Shown here in pieces: positions 15,953-38,526 of a stretch of 38,526 nucleotides of DNA (the stretch's first letter is position 1; every line of letters starts with the position of its first letter). The position numbers and the translations under genes are program-made. Source of the DNA: a virus. The stretch covers positions 1 to 38,526 of IMG/VR virus record IMGVR_UViG_3300042568_000519; one strand, written 5' to 3'. The notes beneath the pieces are model-generated. The model was not told the DNA's origin. It saw only the letters and a list, made by a program, of their open reading frames with translations, and ran no database searches.

Positions 15953-17533
15953 TTATCCCCCTACCTCGCAACCAGCAAGCGCAACCCCCTCCGGTTCAAG
16001 TGGGCCAAGCTCATCCTCCATCCGCTCCAACAGGCTCCGCCCATCCTCGCCCAGCGCCTTCATGTACTCGTCCATCCGCTTCCCGCCACCACCACAGAAG
16101 GCCAATACCATCGCATCCGCCCGATCCGGACTGTTCACCCCTCTGGCGCGTAGCTCATCCTTCCCCTCCAGCGTCAGCTTACCCTTGCCATTGGTCCGCA
16201 CCTTCCGGCTCACGAACTGCTGGAGCAATACCTCGTCGGTCCCGACCGGTCCCAGATTCACCTTCCCCTCCTCCACCATCCGCCCGAACTCAATCCACAT
16301 CTCCGCCGCCCGATTCACAAACTGATCATCCCGGATGGCCCGCTCCCCGAAATTCACCCGCCTCACATCCCACCCCTCCGCCCGGAGCGCATCGCACATG
16401 ACAACCCCCATGCCACCCACATCCGCGTAGATGTCCTCAGCCTTCAGCTTCCACTTCCGGAACTCACTGATGAACCGCCCCACACTGGCCATCGTGTCCT
16501 TGTCCCGCCAGCGGATCAGCCCCTTCACCGTGTTCCCATGGCGCACCACCATCACGCTCTCATCCCCGCCGGCGCTGAAATCGCAGCCCGCGGTCAACCG
16601 GTGCCCCTCCGTATCCTCCTTGGGTGGGCCACTCACCACCTTCTGCCAGTCAGCCGTCTTCACCGCGGTCAGGCTCCCGTCATCCTCCATGAACTCCGCG
16701 TAGATCATCGAGCGCACCAACGGATGACCCTCTCCCCAGCGGGCCATCTGCTCATCAATCCACTCCTTCCGGATATGCGGACAATCGTAAGCGGTAACGG
16801 TAAAGGTCTGCCACTTGCCATCATTCCTCCGGAATACATCGTAGAAGTACCCGGAGCTGCCACCAGGGCTGCTCATCAGCAGGGTTCTGGTCGGCTGGCA
16901 CCGCTCCATTGACTGGAAGATCCCGTCCGGAACCGCCTTCGCCTCGTCAACAATGTACATCAAGTCATTGCTCGGACCCTGCACGTGCCAGCCCTCCGCC
17001 TTCTCCGGGTTGCTCGCCGAGAACCCAATACACCGGCTGATCAGCTCCTGACCATCCACTTTCTTCGGGTACACATACCGAATCTCACCATCCTTGATCG
17101 AGAATCCATTCTCCTCGCCTCCCAACCCATTGATCATCTTCCGCAGGTGAGGCCACAACGCGTCGGCCACCTGTCGGTACACACCAGCGGTACACACCAC
17201 CAAGCTCCCCGGCCAGCGGAGCATGTGCCATACCACCGCGCTCGCCGCTACCATGCTCGTCTTGCCAGAGCCGTTCGCAGCTTTCAGAGCCACCTTCGAG
17301 TGCTTCTCGTTCAACGCCCCCAACACCGCCTCCTGCCACGCGTAGGTTTCACGTAGGCCAAGCATCATCTTGGGGAAGTTCTTCAGCTGCTGAGCCTCCT
17401 CCAGGAGCTTGCGCTGCTTCCACGCAGGGATGTGAGAACCCATTCCAAGTGAAGGGGATTTCTTGCGCTTAATTTGCTTGACGGGCATAAAATTTGGTGT
17501 GGGACGGGGAGGGGGTATATAGGTAACACCCAC
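15953..17533 (-). CDS. terL: Terminase large subunit, ATPase and nuclease, 526 aa
   Basis: The ATPase domain shows Walker A AANGSGKT (residues 85-92), Walker B LMYIVDEA (191-198) and the coupling motif LLMSSPGG (218-225). The nuclease domain shows acidic residues in GCDFSAGGDES (Asp318), YADVGGMG (Asp371) and SPDRADAMVLAF near residue 480. It packages DNA at the portal. The frame opens with GTG at 17533, next to AAGAGGGG; an alternative ATG at 17488 (511 aa) has no ribosome site. The start region lies within a hairpin (17524-17569). Confidence 0.9.
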   Translation of the reverse strand: MGVTYIPPPRPTPNFMPVKQIKRKKSPSLGMGSHIPAWKQRKLLEEAQQLKNFPKMMLGLRETYAWQEAVLGALNEKHSKVALKAANGSGKTSMVAASAVVWHMLRWPGSLVVCTAGVYRQVADALWPHLRKMINGLGGEENGFSIKDGEIRYVYPKKVDGQELISRCIGFSASNPEKAEGWHVQGPSNDLMYIVDEAKAVPDGIFQSMERCQPTRTLLMSSPGGSSGYFYDVFRRNDGKWQTFTVTAYDCPHIRKEWIDEQMARWGEGHPLVRSMIYAEFMEDDGSLTAVKTADWQKVVSGPPKEDTEGHRLTAGCDFSAGGDESVMVVRHGNTVKGLIRWRDKDTMASVGRFISEFRKWKLKAEDIYADVGGMGVVMCDALRAEGWDVRRVNFGERAIRDDQFVNRAAEMWIEFGRMVEEGKVNLGPVGTDEVLLQQFVSRKVRTNGKGKLTLEGKDELRARGVNSPDRADAMVLAFCGGGGKRMDEYMKALGEDGRSLLERMEDELGPLEPEGVALAGCEVGG

Positions 17534-17569
17534 CCCCCTCTTGGGGGTCCTGGTCCCCCCGTGGTGTTA
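17524..17569 (-). promoter_or_regulatory. Folded TerS/TerL junction
   Basis: TAACACC (17524-17530) pairs with GGTGTTA (17563-17569, containing the TerS stop), and an inner hairpin pairs 17532-17537 with 17543-17548 (ACCCCC/GGGGGT, loop of 5). On mRNA this encloses the candidate GTG start and G-rich ribosome site of TerL. It may control TerL translation; there is no U run, so it is not a terminator. Confidence 0.4.
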
Positions 17570-18010
17570 TTTCCCTCCTCCGAAGGCACCGAGTAGGGCA
17601 CCGGATACCGAGAGTTCCTTCCCTCCTTTGCCGGTATGTTCGAGCGATGCCCTTGCTACGTAACCTCTGGTTCTTTCTAGCAACCAAGCAGAGCCTTGCC
17701 AGCCGTTGCCGCATGATCGGACAACCGACGTAAGGTCATACTCGCCCCGAGTCCTGGCCGCTTCGATGGCTTCCTTCCTTTCCGGATACCGCAGCAAGTA
17801 CTTGTTAAAAGTCTTATCGCTCATTCCGGAAAGGGCCCACAACCTTTCCATCGGGAGCCCGAGCGATGCGGCGTCAAGTACTCGAGACCAGTCGGCATCG
17901 GCGATAGTCTTAGGATCAGGACCGTTTTTTTTAGGTGCATCGGAAGGACGTTTTATGGGTGCTTTCCCCTTCCCCCCTTTGACCAGGTCACCGCTCCCTT
18001 TCGCTTTCAT
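17567..18010 (-). CDS. Terminase small subunit candidate, 147 aa
   Basis: Residues 41-75 form a helix-turn-helix (WSRVLDAASLGLPMERLWAL, then SGMSDKTFNKYL), followed by a helical region and a basic C-terminus. This matches small terminase architecture: N-terminal DNA binding, central oligomerisation. It lies directly before TerL. The Lys/Gly-rich first 30 residues may be disordered. ATG at 18010 is chosen; a GTG at 18046 would add 12 residues. It would bind phage DNA to start packaging. Confidence 0.75.
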   Translation of the reverse strand: MKAKGSGDLVKGGKGKAPIKRPSDAPKKNGPDPKTIADADWSRVLDAASLGLPMERLWALSGMSDKTFNKYLLRYPERKEAIEAARTRGEYDLTSVVRSCGNGWQGSAWLLERTRGYVARASLEHTGKGGKELSVSGALLGAFGGGK

Positions 18011-18049
18011 GCCGCAACTCACCCCTACAAAAGGCCACTTGGCCACATT

Positions 18050-18078
18050 TTCTCAGATTTAGTTGCGATGAGTATAAT
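18050..18078 (+). promoter_or_regulatory. Sigma70-like promoter candidate for the plus-strand operon
   Basis: TTCTCA at 18050-18055 and a perfect TATAAT at 18073-18078 are separated by 17 bp, in the 90-bp gap between divergent genes. It would drive 18101-20009. No equally good promoter was found for the leftward packaging genes in this gap. Confidence 0.5.
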
Positions 18079-18100
18079 ACCGTAGTAAACAAGCGACTCC

Positions 18101-18436
18101 ATGACATCCCAAGCAACGACAGCAACGCCAGCAACCACCACCGAACACCCGTTCGCTTCATTCACGAACGTAGGATGGGTCCGCCCCGGAACTTTCGTTC
18201 CTATTGCAACCATAAGCCCGACTCCTGATTGGGTCCGAGGAGTTACCGACGCCCATCACGGGTGCCACGAGATCTTGACGGGCACCGAGAAAGATTGTTG
18301 GTGCATGCTATTCGTTCGCTTTGGTGCAAACGACGGGCTCCCTCCCGGTGATTGGCTGATTTACTACCGGTACGACGACGACGACGGTACCCACGATCAT
18401 CAGCTTTGCGTTTCGGCCCGCATCACCCCGCAGTGA
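18101..18436 (+). CDS. Hypothetical protein, 111 aa, first gene of plus operon
   Basis: The N-terminus is Thr/Ala-rich and probably disordered. The rest holds VRPGTFVPIATISPTPDW, three Cys and several His (DAHHGCHEI, DCWC), and an acidic patch (YRYDDDDGTHDH) that could bind metal. It begins 23 bp after a TATAAT box. No family is recognised. It heads a compact block of short genes on the strand opposite to almost everything else in the phage. Confidence 0.55.
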   Translation: MTSQATTATPATTTEHPFASFTNVGWVRPGTFVPIATISPTPDWVRGVTDAHHGCHEILTGTEKDCWCMLFVRFGANDGLPPGDWLIYYRYDDDDGTHDHQLCVSARITPQ

Positions 18437-18466
18437 CCGGATCCGGTGCCTTTCACTGAGAGGCAT
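18436..18466. promoter_or_regulatory. Palindrome plus hairpin in the gap before 18497
   Basis: A perfect 12-bp palindrome (ACCGGATCCGGT, 18436-18447) is followed directly by a hairpin with arms 18448-18455 and 18459-18466, including one G-T pair. There is no U run. It could be an operator or an mRNA processing element between the first and second genes of the plus operon. Confidence 0.35.
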
Positions 18467-18496
18467 CTGGTCTGGCCATTGAGGTCAGCTTACACC

Positions 18497-18601
18497 ATGA
18501 AATCAAAACTCCTCCGCGCTTGTGCATTCCTAGCGCTTCACCTCCTCCTCCTTCCAATCATCTGGCTCCTCGCCGATGCTTTGATCGGAGGTTCCAATTG
18601 A
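18497..18601 (+). CDS. Small membrane protein, 34 aa
   Basis: The peptide has a basic start (MKSKLLR) and one hydrophobic helix (ACAFLALHLLLLPIIWLLAD), so it should be a single-pass inner membrane peptide. Its stop overlaps the TTG start of the next gene (TTGA), and a GGAGG site inside it serves that next gene. No family is recognised. Confidence 0.5.
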   Translation: MKSKLLRACAFLALHLLLLPIIWLLADALIGGSN

Positions 18602-18852
18602 CTCTCTTCCGTTGCAACGGCTTTCGCTCCGTCCGCGCTCTCGGGATCCGAGACGCCGCCGAAGTTTTCGCGAAACGCGCCGCCCGCCGGGCATTCGGTC
18701 GTCGCGGTATCGTTCGGACCCTAGTGGAGGATTCCTACACCCGGAACCTGTCCATCGTGGAGTTTGCCGCTTTCATCGGATATCCGACCGGTCCCAATGA
18801 AACGACGGGCCACAATGTTCGTTTTACCGTGATCAACGGAGGTGCCCTTTGA
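18598..18852 (+). CDS. Conserved accessory protein, 84 aa, TTG start
   Basis: The start is TTG at 18598, placed six bases after GGAGG and overlapping the preceding stop. The sequence (FRCNGFRSVRALGIRDAAEV, basic RRAFGRRGIVRTL, then FAAFIGYPTG) matches a pattern I recall in plasmids and phages beside the family encoded next. A longer frame to 18520 exists but lacks this ribosome site. It ends in TTGA overlap with the following gene. Function is unknown. Confidence 0.65.
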   Translation: MTLFRCNGFRSVRALGIRDAAEVFAKRAARRAFGRRGIVRTLVEDSYTRNLSIVEFAAFIGYPTGPNETTGHNVRFTVINGGAL

Positions 18853-19541
18853 ACGGATTTGTCCTTCACGAGGATCGCGACCGCGTGATCATCGCCACGG
18901 GCTTCTCAAACCCTTCGGACAACCGGAAGACGGGCGACATGATTCAGATTTGGATTCTGGTCAAAGCCGTTGATCCCGTGGAAGCGATCAAACAAGGCCT
19001 CGACCGTCTGATTTGCGGTTCCTGCGTCCACCGAGGCAACGGCGACGGCTCCGGTCGTTCCTGCTACGTCAACGTAGGCCAAGCCCCGTTGGGAATCTGG
19101 CGGGCGTGGAAAGCGGGCGCATACCTTCCCCTCCCTTCCGTCTCCGTGTTCTCCGGAAGGCGGGTCCGTTTCGGAGCGTACGGGGACCCTACTTGGATCC
19201 CCCTTAGCCTCGCCTTGGCCATTGCCGGCGCTTCCTCCGGATGGACAGGCTATACCCATCAATGGCGCAAGCCTAGCTTGCAAGGGTGGCGTCAATTGCT
19301 TATGGCCAGTGTGGACACAAGCGCCGAACTCCTCATTGCCCGTTCCATGGGCTGGAGCACCTTCCGTGTGACTCCGGATCTAGATCATCACTCGATTGAG
19401 ATTTTGTGCGCCAGCGACCGAGTCGGTACCCCATGCGCCGATTGCCTAGCCTGCGCGGGCTCCCGTTCCGGTGTCCGCTCAATCCACATCCCGGTGCACG
19501 GGACCGGACGTCGACACTTCATTGAGTCGGCCAGTGTGTGA
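18849..19541 (+). CDS. Conserved accessory protein with GYTHQW and MASVDT motifs, 230 aa
   Basis: The start is TTG at 18849, again with GGAGG six bases upstream and TTGA overlap. Recognisable landmarks are CGSC near residue 67, RRVRFGAYGDP (about 113-123), GWTGYTHQW (about 142-150), MASVDTSAE (about 163-171) and a C-terminal CADCLACAG cluster. I recall this as a widespread family of unknown function in phages and plasmids, usually with the partner encoded just upstream. The Cys clusters suggest metal or Fe-S binding. No biochemical role can be stated. Confidence 0.7.
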   Translation: MNGFVLHEDRDRVIIATGFSNPSDNRKTGDMIQIWILVKAVDPVEAIKQGLDRLICGSCVHRGNGDGSGRSCYVNVGQAPLGIWRAWKAGAYLPLPSVSVFSGRRVRFGAYGDPTWIPLSLALAIAGASSGWTGYTHQWRKPSLQGWRQLLMASVDTSAELLIARSMGWSTFRVTPDLDHHSIEILCASDRVGTPCADCLACAGSRSGVRSIHIPVHGTGRRHFIESASV

Positions 19542-19609
19542 GTTGTCCGGTCAGCCTATGGGGGCGACTCCGTAGGTTGCGCGGGCAATTGACGCCCTTA
19601 CAAGAAAAC

Positions 19610-19843
19610 ATGAAAACCACACAAGTCCCTACCGCAACCCGCAACCCGTACCGAATCAGCGCCATGGAAGCGCTTGAAAACGAGGGTTGGGAACCATCCG
19701 AAGACGGCGCTTTTGAATACGCCCGCCATGCTATGTTCGATGGCACCTCGCCCGCTTGTTGCACTGAGGGTTGCATTGTCGAACCAGACGGGCGCTGCTC
19801 CCATGGGTGCCCTTCACTTCTGATCGCCCTTGGCATGATCTGA
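19610..19843 (+). CDS. Cysteine-rich small accessory protein, 77 aa
   Basis: The N-terminus (RNPYRISAMEALENEGWEPS) is helical, and the C-terminus has ACCTEGCIVEPDGRCSHGCP, five Cys and a His suitable for zinc. I recall similar small Cys-rich proteins in mobile elements. The ATG at 19610 is preferred to an earlier in-frame ATG because no ribosome site precedes that one. It belongs to the plus operon. Confidence 0.65.
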   Translation: MKTTQVPTATRNPYRISAMEALENEGWEPSEDGAFEYARHAMFDGTSPACCTEGCIVEPDGRCSHGCPSLLIALGMI

Positions 19844-19845
19844 TC

Positions 19846-19920
19846 ATGAAAACAACCCACACTTTCCTACTTGAAGAGCACGCCCGGGAGTTTTCGCTTT
19901 TAATCGAGGCTTTGGAATGA
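19846..19920 (+). CDS. Tiny ORF, 24 aa
   Basis: ATG two bases after the previous stop, stop overlapping the next start by ATGA. The peptide is helical and charged (HTFLLEEHAREFSLLIEALE). Support is limited to its coupling with both neighbours. Confidence 0.35.
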   Translation: MKTTHTFLLEEHAREFSLLIEALE

Positions 19921-20009
19921 CCGATCTATTCCGTGCCCTTGGGTATCTTCTCCTTGGCGCTTTCTTCGTTGCCCTTATGGTTCTCTCCGCCCTTGCCGGC
20001 AACGGCTGA
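19917..20009 (+). CDS. Small membrane peptide, 30 aa
   Basis: The frame starts at an ATGA overlap. A hydrophobic helix (YLLLGAFFVALMVLSALAG) spans most of the peptide. It is the last gene before the strong terminator at 20036. Single-pass membrane location is predicted; function is unknown. Confidence 0.45.
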   Translation: MTDLFRALGYLLLGAFFVALMVLSALAGNG

Positions 20010-20035
20010 CAAGTAGGCCAGTCCCCCCCCTTCGC

Positions 20036-20062
20036 CCCCTAGGTTCCCCCTAGGGGTTTTTT
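20036..20062 (+). terminator. Rho-independent terminator of the plus operon
   Basis: CCCCTAGG (20036-20043) pairs perfectly with CCTAGGGG (20049-20056) across a 5-base loop, followed by six T (20057-20062). This is the clearest terminator in the window and closes the 18101-20009 operon. Confidence 0.9.
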
Positions 20063-20265
20063 GTTGCCCGTACCCTGTCTCCACTCGGTTACCTTCCTTC
20101 CTTCCTTGCCCGTCGCCCGCCCCCCTAGGACACCCAATGTCCGACCAGGTGAGACGCTCGATGTCCTACCCCTCCGCCCTCGCGCCAAGATCTCCCGCAC
20201 CGGCCCATACGCCATACAGAATTCGGAATTCGGAATCTTGAAATCCGGAATCCGCGGAGCCCCGA

Positions 20266-20357
20266 GCATGGAGCGGTATCCTCCGGGGCATGGAGCGGTA
20301 GAAGCGATTTATTCCATCCCCACACTTTCCTGCTTGACGACTGAGCATGGAGCGGTA
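20266..20357 (+). repeat. Three copies of a 13-bp repeat
   Basis: GCATGGAGCGGTA occurs at 20266-20278, 20288-20300 and 20345-20357 with start-to-start distances of 22 and 57 bp. The last copy provides GGAG at a suitable distance for the GTG start at 20360. The copies are identical, unlike chance matches. Confidence 0.8.
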
Positions 20358-20359
20358 GG

Positions 20360-20599
20360 GTGCCCTCCGACATGAGCCCAAACATTGAGAGGTTACTTGA
20401 GGGCCTCCGCGAAGCCCGCGTGAGGACGAGCCAGGAGCACGACGAGGTATTCCGTGAAGCGATCGCTAAGATCCAGATCGGGAATCACTTGGCCGACTTG
20501 CTGGAACGCTGCATCAGGGGAGGAAAGAATCGGGTGCTGAGCAAGCGAACGATCGAAGACTCGGTGTACTACATCAACGAATTCAAAGGATACAAATGA
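20360..20599 (+). CDS. Small helical protein, 79 aa
   Basis: The start may be GTG at 20360, with GGAG seven bases upstream, or ATG at 20372. The sequence is charged and helical (SPNIERLLEGLREARVRTSQ; HLADLLERCIRGG). Its stop overlaps the next start (ATGA). No family is recognised. Confidence 0.55.
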   Translation: MPSDMSPNIERLLEGLREARVRTSQEHDEVFREAIAKIQIGNHLADLLERCIRGGKNRVLSKRTIEDSVYYINEFKGYK

Positions 20600-20895
20600 A
20601 CTACAACGACTACACTCTGATAAATAAAACTGATCTATCTATAATGAGAGATCGCATCAAGGAGCTGGAGGGATCCAACAGAAAGCTGATGGAGCTGGCC
20701 GACACGAAGCGGATGTTTTTGATACACAAGATCGAGGATCGTTTGACTGCTATATTGAAAGCGGGCCATTGCATGGCCGATCGCAAGCATTGCTATTGCG
20801 AGAACTCTAAGGGCTCGAGCCTGAAGATGGTCTGCGGATACTGCCGCTCGCTGATCGATGACTGGAAGTCCGCGGTCGGGAATCTGACCGAGTAG
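20596..20895 (+). CDS. Small coiled-coil and zinc-finger-like protein, 99 aa
   Basis: Residues 10-45 form a charged coil (MRDRIKELEGSNRKLMELAD). Residues 58-83 hold a Cys/His cluster: HCMADRKHCYCEN and MVCGYC, likely binding zinc. Translationally coupled to the preceding gene by ATGA. This pairing of coil and Cys cluster is frequent in small early phage proteins. Function is unknown. Confidence 0.6.
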   Translation: MNYNDYTLINKTDLSIMRDRIKELEGSNRKLMELADTKRMFLIHKIEDRLTAILKAGHCMADRKHCYCENSKGSSLKMVCGYCRSLIDDWKSAVGNLTE

Positions 20896-21098
20896 GCCAA
20901 ACATCCCCCGTCCTCCACCCCGCGGAGCCCTCGGACCACCCATCCGGGGGCTTTCCGTTTCCAGCCCCGCGGACCCCGCTTTCGCAATTTGATGCGGAAT
21001 CCCCCCTCCGACGCACTGGCGACCCCTTTCTGATCGATTGCGAGGCATCCATATCCATCCATCGGACCCGATACTTCGCAATCAGTGGAGGGTTATTG

Positions 21099-21165
21099 AA
21101 AAACCGCCGCTGAGCGCGGGGGGCCGGCACGAGCCCCCACGCAGCGTCTCAGCGTTGCGGTTTTT
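21099..21165. terminator. Large hairpin with A and T tracts, bidirectional terminator or structured RNA
   Basis: AAAAACCGC (21099-21107) pairs with GCGGTTTTT (21157-21165); GCTGAG (21109-21114) pairs with CTCAGC (21148-21153); 21116-21124 pairs with 21133-21142 with one bulge, leaving an 8-base loop. In total 24 pairs form three stacked stems. The flanking A5 and T5 give a U run on either transcript, so it could stop transcription both ways. Confidence 0.6.
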
Positions 21166-21166
21166 A

Positions 21167-21206
21167 ACTCCCTAGAAGAGGGAGTGACAAGACTCCCTCT
21201 AGGGAG
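21167..21206 (+). promoter_or_regulatory. Element with two exclusive hairpin folds
   Basis: ACTCCCT (21167-21173) can pair with AGGGAGT (21179-21185), with a second short hairpin at 21195-21206. Alternatively CTCCCTAG (21168-21175) pairs with CTAGGGAG (21199-21206) and AGGGAGT with ACTCCCT (21192-21198), giving a 15-bp stem with a 3-base bulge. The two folds exclude each other, as in attenuators. Confidence 0.45.
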
Positions 21207-21301
21207 GTAGCAGTGGCCATGGGAACTTCTTGGTATGCTCTGCAAAATGAACATTCCTTTACATTGACATGTTGCCGTGCATGACGCATTCTGTTCCTGC
21301 T

Positions 21302-21937
21302 ATGAGTTACCTAGACAATGGTTCAACCCTTCGGTCGATGTTCCGACTGATGCCCCCGCAACGCCACGATGCCGACCCGGATCGATCCGAGGTTCTGGCC
21401 TACATTCGTGAGAATCTTAGATGTGAGCTTGGTCGTGCGATCCGTGCGTTCAACTCTATGAGGAACAAGAAGTCTCAGGTGATTGTTTATGACATGGTTC
21501 ATAGGCAATGGCGTGGGTGCGACTGGGTGCCTCCGGAGGATGAGGACAAGGTTTCGCTGCTCTTGAGAACCATCAATGAGCTGAAGCGTGACGTTGCGTA
21601 TCTGAAGACTTCGGTGAAGAAGCACGAGAGGTTGTTTGGCCAACTGGAGCGTAAGCGATCGCGCAAGCGCGAGGAGGAGGAGCCCGACTCCGAGGTTGAG
21701 GTTCAGGAACAGAAAAGCTCCCCGGATGTGGATCCTGAGGAGCTCGAGCGTAAGAAGAGGGAAGAGGAAGATGCGGCTTACGATAAGTCTTCCAAGGAGT
21801 TTTGGGGTGCTATCCTCGCCGAAATGAACGACGAGCCGGTGGCTTCGGCTGCTTCAACTCGGCCCCGGTCATCACCATCGGATTCCACTGCTCCCACACA
21901 ATCCCGCTGGGAGAATGCTGAAGATGTAGTGAGTTAG
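21302..21937 (+). CDS. Hypothetical coiled-coil protein, 211 aa
   Basis: The N-terminal 95 residues are mixed (PDRSEVLAYIRENLRCELGR; VIVYDMVHRQWRGCDW). Residues 75-105 form a coil (INELKRDVAYLKTSVKKHER), followed by a basic patch (RKRSRKREEEE) and an acidic, Ser-rich tail. An ATG at 21269 would add 11 residues; neither start has a ribosome site. Its last 128 bp overlap the 3' end of the primase-helicase on the other strand, so transcription converges here. No family is recognised. DNA binding is possible from the basic patch. Confidence 0.6.
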   Translation: MSYLDNGSTLRSMFRLMPPQRHDADPDRSEVLAYIRENLRCELGRAIRAFNSMRNKKSQVIVYDMVHRQWRGCDWVPPEDEDKVSLLLRTINELKRDVAYLKTSVKKHERLFGQLERKRSRKREEEEPDSEVEVQEQKSSPDVDPEELERKKREEEDAAYDKSSKEFWGAILAEMNDEPVASAASTRPRSSPSDSTAPTQSRWENAEDVVS

Positions 21938-23660
21938 CATCCAGCCTTGATCCGCGCTTGCAGAAGGCCAGTTGGAACCGTCGAGGCTTTGATTGGCCTA
22001 CTTCTACCAAGACCGCGATCTCCCGCGCCCAGTTGGCGAGTTCGCTGGATCCGAACCCGGAGTGGGCGAGTTCCATGGTGGTCATGGGCTCGCCGTCCTT
22101 CCGCTGGGCTTTGCTGATGTGGTGCATCCAGATCCACGCGACCTTGGTCTGGTGGAGGATGGGCTGGAGCTTGTTGCGTAGGAATACGCTGACCTCGCCC
22201 TGATCGCTGAGGTCGCCCCCGAAGTAGGAGAAGAGCGGATCTCCGATGATGACATCGAGCTTCGATCGGGTGATGAATCTCTTCGCGTAGGCCAGGAATG
22301 CGTCACCGGTGCGGACGGCCTCGGTGCGGAAGTGCAGGTTCTCTTGGAGGATGCGGATGTCGGGCGTGTGCATGTTCAGCCCCTTGATGACGCCCTTGAA
22401 TGCTTCTGCGAGGTCGCCCTTGTCGTTCTCGGCTTGGACGATACCGATGCGGAGTGGTCGCACCGGTGCAACACCGAAGAAGTCCCTGCCCATGGCCCAC
22501 TGGATGACGATCTGCATCATCAGGGATGACTTCCCGATGCCGGTGCCACCGGAGATGATCATGGAGGAGCCGCGTGTGAGCCACCGTTTGCCGATGAGGT
22601 TATCCGGATCCTTGTCCGGGTCGAAGTTGATGAGGTCTTTGACCGTGACGACGGTGGCCTTGTCATCATCGGTCTCCCGATCGGTGAGCCAATCTTCCCA
22701 TGATCGAGCGCCGAGGTTGATGTCCAACAGCTTCTGCTTCTCTTCGCCCCGCCAGGAGCCGGGGAGCCGGGAGAAGCGCGATGGGTTCTTGTTCTTGGGA
22801 TCGACATCGGGGATTGCCGAGTAGATGAGGTCCCTGCGGGCGTCCCATTCCTTGCGGTTGGGGGCATCGACACGGACCCATGCATGGATGGACTTGCCAC
22901 CGGAGTCGATGAGGACGCTGATGGGGAGGCCCGAGGAGCGGAGGAGCTGTTCCTGCTCAGCCTTGGGTTTGGAATCGAACTCCACCAGGACATGGCGGTA
23001 GGCGCTGACATCGTTGTCGGAGCCGCTGTAGAGGTTGGGCTTGAACGGGTTGATGCGTACGAAGACTCCATCGGTTCGGTCGCTGCGGAACAGGATGGAC
23101 TCGGGGTCATCGAAGCGAGCGATCCAGTCCTCGAGGGGAAGGAATGAGCCGGCACTGATTGGCCTACCATCCTCGACCTGCTCGCAGATGCAGACCACCT
23201 CGGTGGCCGCGAAGGCGGATGTGAGGAAACGCTTGAACTCCGATGCGTCGTGCGAGGCCGGTATGGGGGCTGCGGGCGGGTTTGATGGCGCGGACGGCTC
23301 CACGGACCCCTCTGGCACCCGCAGAGGCTCCACAGGCTTTGGCCTACTGAACCGCACCCGTGTCAGATCCAATGGCTCAGCGGGGCTGCTTGCCGAGGAA
23401 TTGGCGAGGTGCCCGCGGGGCTTGGAGTGGGACTTCTCATTGGCCTGTCGGATCTTGTGGAGGAGTTCGCGGTCCTGCCAGGGTGGCTGGCATGAGCGGT
23501 TCCAATCGGACAGGAGTGTGAATGCGTCTGTGTCTGACAGGCCGAATCCGTGGACGAGGCCAACGGCGGCGGTGTAGGTTTGTGAGTGCCCTCCGGATCC
23601 GGAGATGGCTGGCGGTACCTTGGCGAGCCAAAGCGCCGCTCGTTCGAGGAGCGTTGTCAT
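21810..23660 (-). CDS. Primase-helicase, PrimPol-like plus RepA/KaiC-type ATPase, 616 aa
   Basis: Residues 20-75 are a PriCT-like helical domain (GSGGHSQTYTAAVGLVHGFG, then WNRSCQPPW). Residues 140-320 look like an archaeo-eukaryotic-type primase: LVEFD (225-229) as the acidic pair site and SGGKSIHAWVRVD (253-265) with the catalytic His. Residues 360-560 are a RecA-fold helicase with Walker A GGTGIGKSS (371-379), Walker B LDVIIGDP (468-475) and MHHISK. It should prime and unwind phage DNA. No DNA polymerase is encoded nearby, so host polymerase is presumably recruited. It is the last gene of the early operon. Confidence 0.85.
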   Translation of the reverse strand: MTTLLERAALWLAKVPPAISGSGGHSQTYTAAVGLVHGFGLSDTDAFTLLSDWNRSCQPPWQDRELLHKIRQANEKSHSKPRGHLANSSASSPAEPLDLTRVRFSRPKPVEPLRVPEGSVEPSAPSNPPAAPIPASHDASEFKRFLTSAFAATEVVCICEQVEDGRPISAGSFLPLEDWIARFDDPESILFRSDRTDGVFVRINPFKPNLYSGSDNDVSAYRHVLVEFDSKPKAEQEQLLRSSGLPISVLIDSGGKSIHAWVRVDAPNRKEWDARRDLIYSAIPDVDPKNKNPSRFSRLPGSWRGEEKQKLLDINLGARSWEDWLTDRETDDDKATVVTVKDLINFDPDKDPDNLIGKRWLTRGSSMIISGGTGIGKSSLMMQIVIQWAMGRDFFGVAPVRPLRIGIVQAENDKGDLAEAFKGVIKGLNMHTPDIRILQENLHFRTEAVRTGDAFLAYAKRFITRSKLDVIIGDPLFSYFGGDLSDQGEVSVFLRNKLQPILHQTKVAWIWMHHISKAQRKDGEPMTTMELAHSGFGSSELANWAREIAVLVEVGQSKPRRFQLAFCKRGSRLDANSLHLQHSPSGIVWEQWNPMVMTGAELKQPKPPARRSFRRG

Positions 23661-23680
23661 GTCGTTGATTTGTTGCTGGA

Positions 23681-23947
23681 CTACGGACTGGTATCGAACG
23701 CGGACGAATCGTCTTGTTCGAGTGGCGGACTATCCTTGGTGATCCATGTGTGGTAGGCTCGAGTCTTCTTTGGGTAGGAGATCCACCCTTTCTTGATGCC
23801 GTATTCGATAAGGCGAGGGGCGTCCTCGATGAGCTTTCGGTTGATGTCGCTCATGGTGGTACGTTCCTCTGCGGTCAATGGGGCTGGCTTCTTGTTGGTT
23901 TCAAGGCGGCATTCGTACCATGGCTGCTCGTGTCGTGGGGTCTTCAT
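23681..23947 (-). CDS. Small early protein, 88 aa
   Basis: The start at 23947 overlaps the preceding stop (ATGA). The sequence has WYECRLETNKKPAPLTAEER and a segment RLIEYGIKKGWISYPKKTRA, mixed and basic. It immediately precedes the primase-helicase gene. No family is recognised; a replication accessory role is only positional. Confidence 0.55.
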   Translation of the reverse strand: MKTPRHEQPWYECRLETNKKPAPLTAEERTTMSDINRKLIEDAPRLIEYGIKKGWISYPKKTRAYHTWITKDSPPLEQDDSSAFDTSP

Positions 23948-24189
23948 GTGGGGAGGATGCGAGCCAGGATACAATTGCAGTAGGTACCCTTGGTTTTGGA
24001 GTTACATCGAGGGTGATGCACAGGATTGGAGATGACGTGTGCAGTGAGGTCGCTCGTGAGCTTGACCATGTCAGTGAGACGACTTGCTGCTTCGAGGCAG
24101 AGGGCTTGCGCGACTCCATCTGGTGATTCGATTTGGGAGCTGACGATCTTGAGTGCCGTTACGATGTCGAGTGTTGAGGACTGGTTCAT
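23944..24189 (-). CDS. Small early protein, 81 aa
   Basis: Helical N-terminal part (STLDIVTALKIVSSQI; LCLEAASRLTDMVKLT), then a Cys/His stretch (HHPRCNSKTKGTYCNC) that might bind metal. The stop overlaps the next start by ATGA, and the start lies 1 bp after the preceding gene. Function is unknown. Confidence 0.5.
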   Translation of the reverse strand: MNQSSTLDIVTALKIVSSQIESPDGVAQALCLEAASRLTDMVKLTSDLTAHVISNPVHHPRCNSKTKGTYCNCILARILPT

Positions 24190-24190
24190 G

Positions 24191-24454
24191 TTATTTCTGT
24201 TTGTGGATTATGATGCCGTTACCCTTGGCGTCGGTGAGTTCGACTGATCGGACGTCTTCGAGGCGGGCCAAGGTCTTGATCATCTCGATGGGATCATGGG
24301 CTTGAGCGACGCAGGTGAGATGGATGTCTCCGTCGCCGTGGATCACTTTGAGGTCTTGCTTGGTACGATCCCTTGTAATGCGGATGGTCCGCCCCTCCGA
24401 GAGGCGGACCACCTTGATTGATTCAACGAGTGGGTATTGGTGACGGTTGCTCAT
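24191..24454 (-). CDS. Small early protein, 87 aa
   Basis: Predicted alpha/beta fold: VESIKVVRLSEGRTIRITRD, then DLKVIHGDGDIHLTCVAQ, with a helix DPIEMIKTLARLEDV. The start at 24454 overlaps the preceding stop by ATGA. No family recognised. Confidence 0.55.
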   Translation of the reverse strand: MSNRHQYPLVESIKVVRLSEGRTIRITRDRTKQDLKVIHGDGDIHLTCVAQAHDPIEMIKTLARLEDVRSVELTDAKGNGIIIHKQK

Positions 24455-24990
24455 GTTTGAAGGCCGCAGTGAGGACACTTCTTGCCGCTGAATGATTCAA
24501 GCGGTTTGACTTCGAGCCATTGGCAGAGGTCGGTGTAGGACTTGCGACCGAAGTTGTCCCACTTGAAAGGGGCGATCTCCCTAGATAGAACCGCGTTGCG
24601 AGCGGCCTCCTTGGATTTCAATTCGAGGAAGTCCATCAGCTTAGCGTTACGAACGCTGAGCCCGTAGGTCCACTTGGCCCGCTCGATATCGCGCTGCTGA
24701 CCAGCTTTGATGATCTGATAGACCCGCTGCTTGGACATCTTGAAGTGTTCACCGATGAGACGATAGGTGAGCCCTTCTGATCGCAGCTTGTTAACTTGAT
24801 CGATTGAATCGCTGAGTTTCATGTATATTCGCTTCTTGTCCTTCTTCTTCTTACTAACTGCCACTACCTCAAAGGTGTTTGTATTGCTCGGTACCTCTTC
24901 TGTGCTTTGTGGCACTGGACACACAGGCCGTGCTTGATTATGCATCCGCATCCCAAGCAATCGGCCAATTCGTGACATAACTGTTTCCAT
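24451..24990 (-). CDS. Regulator with sigma4-like HTH and RNA polymerase alpha-CTD-like domain, 179 aa
   Basis: Residues 71-95 (SEGLTYRLIGEHFKMSKQRV) form a helix-turn-helix like sigma region 4. Residues 111-160 follow the alpha C-terminal domain plan: LSVRNAKLMDFLELKS, then DNFGRKSYTDLCQWL, the latter close to the NFGRKSLxEIxxxL signature of RpoA. A CPHC (172-175) near the end suggests metal binding. It may recruit or redirect host RNA polymerase. The ATG at 24990 has AGAGGA upstream; an ATG at 24822 (123 aa) would keep both domains and avoid the overlapping frame. The Lys-rich residues 47-54 may be a linker. Confidence 0.65.
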   Translation of the reverse strand: METVMSRIGRLLGMRMHNQARPVCPVPQSTEEVPSNTNTFEVVAVSKKKKDKKRIYMKLSDSIDQVNKLRSEGLTYRLIGEHFKMSKQRVYQIIKAGQQRDIERAKWTYGLSVRNAKLMDFLELKSKEAARNAVLSREIAPFKWDNFGRKSYTDLCQWLEVKPLESFSGKKCPHCGLQT

Positions 24991-25043
24991 CGTTGTAGTT
25001 CCTCTATTGTTGTTTGTTGTTTTTGCTGTTCTTGATGTTCCAT
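24864..25043 (-). CDS. Possible overlapping zinc-ribbon-like ORF, 59 aa
   Basis: This frame overlaps the N-terminus of the alpha-CTD-like gene and the 3' end of the HTH gene. It reads EELQRWKQLCHELADCLGCG and GLCVQCHKAQKRYR, with CxC and CxxC pairs, a pattern seen in small phage early proteins. There is no ribosome site. Either this or the long N-terminus of the neighbour is likely the true reading; both could be used. Confidence 0.4.
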   Translation of the reverse strand: MEHQEQQKQQTTIEELQRWKQLCHELADCLGCGCIIKHGLCVQCHKAQKRYRAIQTPLR

Positions 25044-29369: not shown

Positions 29370-29397
29370 CCCCCCGGAGCCTGCACTCTCCGGGGGG
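29370..29397. promoter_or_regulatory. Strong hairpin directly upstream of the helicase start
   Basis: CCCCCCGGAG (29370-29379) pairs perfectly with CTCCGGGGGG (29388-29397), loop of 8. On minus-strand mRNA it ends 4 bases before the ATG, and its G-run is the only possible ribosome site. On the plus strand it is followed by CTTTTGTTTG, so it may also stop antisense transcripts. Confidence 0.6.
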
Positions 29398-29411
29398 CTT
29401 TTGTTTGTAGG

Positions 29412-38161: not shown

Positions 38162-38526
38162 AGATCGTTAGCTCAGTTCGTTGAGGATTGACCGACGGGC
38201 CATGCGACCGCCCATGCTCCGCATCGCCGCGGCGAGGATCTCCTCGGGATCGTAGTTGATGTCGCGGAAGTACCGGCTCGAAGCCATGTCCCGATTGCGA
38301 GTCAGCACGGGGTTGACCGGAAGCTCGGGCAACGGGGTCGTGATGACTGGCCTGCTCAGCACCGAGGCACCGGGGAGTACGATGGGGTTGCGAGTGGTCG
38401 TTGACGGAAAACTGGTTGTGGGCTGTAAGGTAAATTGAGGTTTATCCAACGGGATCAACCCTGGAGTGATAGGCTTGCTCTCTATAGCGGGGCCGGCAAC
38501 ACCAGTGTCCTCTATGTAGTAAGGCT
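38048..38526. repeat. Right copy of terminal redundancy
   Basis: Matches bases 1-479 over its whole length with 8 substitutions. Together the copies show that the window closes on itself with a unique length of about 38,047 bp. Confidence 0.9.
38168..38526 (-). CDS. 3' part of the proline-rich virion gene (second copy through terminal overlap)
   Basis: The frame runs in from the window edge and ends at 38168. It equals the C-terminal part of the gene at 121-1161 with two amino-acid changes (Pro to Ser near left position 234, Gln to Leu near 128) and six silent ones. It is not a separate gene. Confidence 0.85.
   Translation of the reverse strand, partial: PYYIEDTGVAGPAIESKPITPGLIPLDKPQFTLQPTTSFPSTTTRNPIVLPGASVLSRPVITTPLPELPVNPVLTRNRDMASSRYFRDINYDPEEILAAAMRSMGGRMARRSILNELS

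Follow-up and report, generated by a model that had tools for sequence, protein, structure and literature searches.

The structured non-coding block at 21099-21206 is probably the replication origin of this phage family, or a single-strand initiation site within that origin. The window is the whole stretch that was analysed, namely the 38,526-nt viral DNA of IMG/VR record IMGVR_UViG_3300042568_000519 (positions 1 to 38,526). The block lies where converging operons meet, in a gene-free stretch whose length of 406 bp (20896-21301) we confirmed and which is flanked by the 20596-20895 and 21302 genes. The initial annotation had mentioned phage origins as one setting for large hairpins. This idea gains support from GC skew, gene context, a conserved shape and a like arrangement in distant phages, and it stands as a candidate. 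The features discussed below are the following.

20926-20960, plus strand: terminator-like hairpin, AGCCCTCGG/CCGGGGGCT then TTTCCGTTT, read from the sequence, with a similar hairpin in relatives
21075-21082, plus strand: TTCGCAAT motif, which precedes hairpin 1 by about 17 nt and is shared by many relatives but not all
21099-21165, plus strand: hairpin 1, with P1 (21099-21107/21157-21165), P2 (21108-21114/21148-21154) and the upper stem P3 (about 21115-21147)
21168-21206, plus strand: element 2 or P4, outer part 21168-21173 with 21201-21206, inner part 21177-21185 with 21192-21200
21264-21292, plus strand: TTGACA-N17-CATTCT, promoter-like by consensus resemblance only, for the 21302 gene and downstream of the element
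21302-21937, plus strand: the 21302 gene, encoding the co-inherited partner protein, tentatively a winged helix plus coiled coil
21810-23660, minus strand: primase-helicase gene, AEP/PrimPol-type primase by profile match plus RepA-type AAA_25 helicase, with its 3' end facing the element

As for gene context, the 21810 protein matches the phage primase family phrog_2597 and AAA_25. Used as a profile, it matches the PrimPol AEP domain of 6zp9 (E 4.6e-5), which we take to be the NrS-1 enzyme (PP-N190), and a relative of the protein matches the same domain as a single sequence (E 0.0019). The best fold match of its AlphaFold model is the RSF1010 RepA helicase, a weak match from a low-confidence model. 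The helices of the 21302 protein are consistent with a helix-turn-helix and a coiled coil, and its winged-helix matches are weak. The AlphaFold models of the two proteins are poor (pLDDT 63 and 47), with weak fold matches. Among the proteins scanned, which are part of the proteome, no DNA polymerase and no partition ATPase were recognised.

The 67-base hairpin with A5/T5 ends, and the two-base spacer that separates it from element 2, are present as first described, and the two structured parts are far more stable than shuffles. With RNA parameters, hairpin 1 folds at -41.6 kcal/mol (z -4.8; 0/200 shuffles equally stable), element 2, folded as 21167-21206, at -25.5 (z -4.4), and the whole 126-nt block has a z of -6.6. 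With DNA parameters the z-scores are -5.8 for hairpin 1, -4.4 for element 2 and -7.9 for the block, all measured against dinucleotide shuffles. The count of 24 bp given earlier is exceeded somewhat by the predicted fold of hairpin 1 once the upper stem is included. For element 2, a pair of small hairpins and one bulged stem are both possible, the bulged stem being the minimum-energy fold.

Relatives were collected in two ways. The 21810-23660 protein as a query retrieved 80 viral contigs, and an element-2 pattern retrieved at least 119 stretches; the loci compared contained 76 distinct cores. A model of the element, built on 36 relatives, detects a single strong copy per record in 14 phage records from the wider clade of the window; 2 records that are more distant have a weak match at the corresponding position.

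Covariation over the 36 relatives bears out hairpin 1. The whole-structure score was 0.177, compared with 0.070 in shuffles, and 0/500 shuffles scored as high, a count that is not a probability because the shuffle control keeps shared ancestry. There were 56 cells with two-sided changes (13.9 in shuffles), all of them in hairpin 1, and the signal vanishes when the partner is shifted by 1-3 columns. Only two of the 324 cells in P1 are unpaired, and the exchanges run from A-U to U-A and from C-G to A-U, U-A and G-C. Seven of the eight P1 arm pairs are fully paired (one via G-U) and the remaining one has a single mismatch. Hairpin 1 keeps its shape while its sequence differs. Within the window clade, element 2 hardly changes in sequence, its arms CTCCCT/AGGGAG being nearly invariant and without two-sided changes, so that covariation is unable to choose between its two folds. 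By inspection, a few paired insertions (e.g. in L124 and L084) favour the long fold.

Cumulative GC skew, named earlier as a way to look for an origin, has its minimum at the element in seven of nine genomes. After rotation of these near-complete genomes to the element, the circular detrended minimum falls 86-372 nt from the element start in those seven; the nine genomes are related rather than independent, and local base composition and coding bias contribute to the skew. In G006 and G008 the minimum is not at the element.

A comparable arrangement was found in other phages. Twelve annotated phages have primases 27-43% identical to the one studied here; Castelnaud has no gap behind the gene, which left 11 to be scored. 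The gap 3' of the primase gene ranked first for local structure in 7/11, second in 2/11 and fourth in 1/11, and was unstructured in 1/11; these ranks are against sliding windows and not length-matched control gaps, and gaps of different length have unequal chances. Strong folding was first seen in Enterococcus EFC-1 (z -4.6), Streptococcus Javan74 (-7.2) and Faecalibacterium Aster (-9.5), whose gaps ranked first, fourth and second, respectively, in genome-wide scans, which were coarse and used fewer shuffles. A sliding scan of the 8-kb locus placed the gap first in Javan535, Bacillus phage BCJA1c, Faecalibacterium phage FP_Lugh, Vadim, Javan253 and Javan311, and second in Javan406; the 75-nt gap of Dulem virus 35 was the unstructured one. 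The window's own element came fourth in a coarse 110-nt scan, and the three regions outside it weakened on refolding with 200 shuffles, reaching only -2.3 to -3.3. Repeated AGGGACA motifs, possibly iterons, were seen in the structured gap behind the primase gene of three Streptococcus phages (L284, L289 and L291).

In distant clades (L036/L037/L039/L041, L072/L073/L075/L195 and relatives), this position is occupied by a long hairpin whose sequence differs and which has a 3' bulge of 4-5 nt; a single small hairpin and TAGTGGG come directly after it. This counterpart of element 2 is a single 6-bp hairpin without an alternative fold. The homologue of the 21302 protein in L073 is 41% identical over 66 residues (E 3e-15). 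Where distant loci were scored, the homologue lies on the opposite strand, aligned with the primase gene, and the orientation of the element relative to the primase gene is unchanged.

Folded as RNA, the plus strand is more stable than the minus strand in 55/56 sequences, and more often has more G-U pairs. This points to a molecule of the plus strand, RNA or single-stranded DNA, and not to a symmetrical cruciform; the bias fits RNA as well as single-stranded DNA and does not separate the two. The main rival to an origin is a structured non-coding RNA that stands alone, some 110-170 nt long. It would be read from the plus strand in the direction of the primase operon's 3' end, and would either be bound by the 21302 protein or act as an antisense or decoy. 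The strand bias, covariation and paired insertions of the kind seen in RNA genes, and a further helix that by inspection is possible downstream are all on its side. Nevertheless, G-T pairs are tolerated in single-stranded DNA too, a weak scan found no promoter-like site just upstream, and Rfam searches, permissive and strict, gave no match to the element above the gathering score. Such an RNA would also leave unexplained both the skew minimum and the recurrence of structure behind the primase genes of other phages, and we consider it unlikely.

A bidirectional intrinsic terminator between the converging operons is suggested by the A5 before and the T5 after hairpin 1, and a terminator scan does flag the hairpin. 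However, the two tracts vary in step (AATAAA/TTTATT), the T-tract also occurring as TTTTTCG, and the hairpins behind the primase in other phages are mostly without U-tracts on inspection. The U-tract is absent in the distant clades, which excludes intrinsic termination as the general role. Moreover, the upstream plus-strand operon already has the terminator-like hairpin at 20926-20960, which from its sequence would end that operon before the element is reached. We regard this function as quite improbable.

The element appears to be inherited together with the 21302 protein. In a comparison of 32 loci, the distances between elements correlate with those between 21302 proteins (r 0.75; partial 0.70 given the primase and the flank), while the partial correlations with the directly upstream 150 nt and with the primase are 0.11 and 0.16. 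Judging from these distances, neither the upstream flank nor the primase seems to be co-inherited with the element; linkage on the 3' side could contribute. The spacing from the element to the ATG of the 21302 gene is fixed at 135/136 nt. When L012 is compared with window 20953-21068, the primases are near-identical, the element and 21302 cassettes differ, and the break at about 21069 is sharp; the cassette thus appears to be exchanged by recombination.

Strong co-inheritance, together with the invariant dyad arms in element 2, would also be expected of a binding site through which the 21302 protein acts in partition or transcription control rather than in replication initiation. Against this, the proteins scanned included no recognisable partition ATPase, and the large hairpin of conserved shape and its recurrence behind homologous primases would have no explanation, which makes the idea very doubtful.

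Least probable of all is the attenuator proposed in the initial annotation, a leader switch of the 21302 gene through two exclusive folds of element 2: both folds can indeed be drawn in the window clade and the element lies upstream of the gene at its fixed spacing, but the switch is not conserved, the U-tract is not either, element 2 has no two-sided changes, distant clades have only the single small hairpin, a promoter-like TTGAC stands between element and gene in the window clade, and in distant clades the gene lies on the opposite strand although the element keeps its orientation, which excludes a leader function as the general role.

The same promoter region holds an inverted repeat of varying sequence over the presumed -10 (window 21264-21301; also L009, L017 and L043), in the versions GGAGAAC..GTTCTCC, TGGAA..TTCCA and GGGAC..GTCCC. 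This suggests autoregulation of the 21302 gene, whose start codon is very near the presumed transcript start. A small ORF after element 2 was dropped on inspection, as its start codon is missing in one clade, and TTCGCAAT was rejected as a universal motif, as several relatives are without it.

Returning to the origin, the most economical view is that the stem-loop serves a PrimPol/RepA-type replication module as its origin or initiation site. In the model we propose, the 21302 protein, winged-helix-like, would mark or melt the site on duplex DNA, and the RepA-type helicase part of the 21810 protein would open it. The plus strand could then fold into the bulged hairpin and the small one next to it, where primers would be started by the AEP primase part of the 21810 protein. 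We infer initiation at the element, the assignment of proteins to hairpins, and an active form that is single-stranded DNA and not RNA. The precedents for the model are RSF1010 RepB' acting on ssiA/ssiB and a proposal made for the pRN1 stem-loop.

In pRN1, a stem-loop of about 100 nt behind the AEP primase-helicase gene is needed for replication and is conserved in shape only (Berkner 2014, PMC4234260), and a similar stem-loop has been reported in Bordetella phage BIP-1 (PMC4234260). Among the papers we searched for stem-loop origins behind RepA-type phage primases, only this work came up. Both systems have an AEP domain and a large non-coding stem-loop 3' of the primase-helicase (rep) gene, conserved in shape and not in sequence. 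The pRN1 protein, however, combines an SF3 helicase with a fused winged helix, whereas here the helicase is of RepA type and the candidate DNA-binding protein is separate. The pRN1 stem-loop starts 54 bp after the gene, while the element here lies some 400-710 bp from the gene, separated from it by the 21302 gene, and has an adjoining second hairpin. Since helicase type and protein layout differ, the element, though it would work in a similar way, is not a member of the pRN1 origin type by strict definition.

The likeness to RSF1010 oriV (ssiA/ssiB, RepA, RepB', RepC) consists of an AEP-type primase, a RepA-type helicase, a separate DNA-binding protein and hairpins; the ssi hairpins are bound and recognised by the AEP primase RepB' (PMC4434180). 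Here too the primase and the RepA-type helicase, the fold of the latter coming from a low-confidence model, adjoin the site. RSF1010 differs in having iterons, an ssi on each strand, and a primase and a helicase that are distinct proteins, whereas the window has one structured block, no iterons seen, a fused primase-helicase and a GTG priming motif that is not universal. As for NrS-1, the primase part matches the PP-N190 profile and the phage PrimPol is fused to a helicase. A difference is that this PrimPol recognises and initiates at short sequence motifs (TTTGGTTA, GTG) according to PMC8718748, a paper from which the word hairpin is absent.

Several findings count against an origin. Besides the two skew misses, the fourth rank of the element in the coarse scan and the weak winged-helix assignment, a search of 20880-21320 for iterons found none, only short repeats in two or three copies, and no obvious AT-rich melting region was seen in the sequence around the element. 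Furthermore, GTG, a known priming motif of AEP primases, is present just 3' of the hairpin in the window and in the L073/L041-type clades and absent in others.

To our knowledge, origins appear to have been mapped in few phages that use PrimPol-type replication proteins. Tentatively, a bulged hairpin with an abutting small hairpin, specified by shape and swapped with its own partner protein, might be a general origin type of phages with a fused AEP primase and RepA-type helicase, including those of Streptococcus, Enterococcus, Bacillus, Paenibacillus and Faecalibacterium and the uncultured phages studied here. If so, sequence alone would be enough to find the origin in many phages, cultured ones among them, by looking for a stem-loop behind the primase-helicase gene, and how hairpin shape, primase and dedicated partner protein are linked would become directly testable.

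Elsewhere in the window, a G+C-rich hairpin at 29371-29402, CCCCCCGGAG/CTCCGGGGGG then CTTTTGTTT on the plus strand, lies near the start of the 28205-29386 gene and looks like a plus-strand terminator or a minus-strand start-site structure. The two ends (121-1161 and 38168-38458) encode near-identical protein sequence, so that the assembly may represent a circular or terminally redundant genome; an exact end overlap of 21-600 bases is absent from the window.

Lastly, a DNA similarity search of 17500-25000 against annotated phages gave no match, and neither did a host search of genome contigs by primase alignment and element-2 pattern. The large terminase (15953-17533) is closest to those of Akkermansia phages, at 31-36% identity, hinting at a host in the Verrucomicrobiota.
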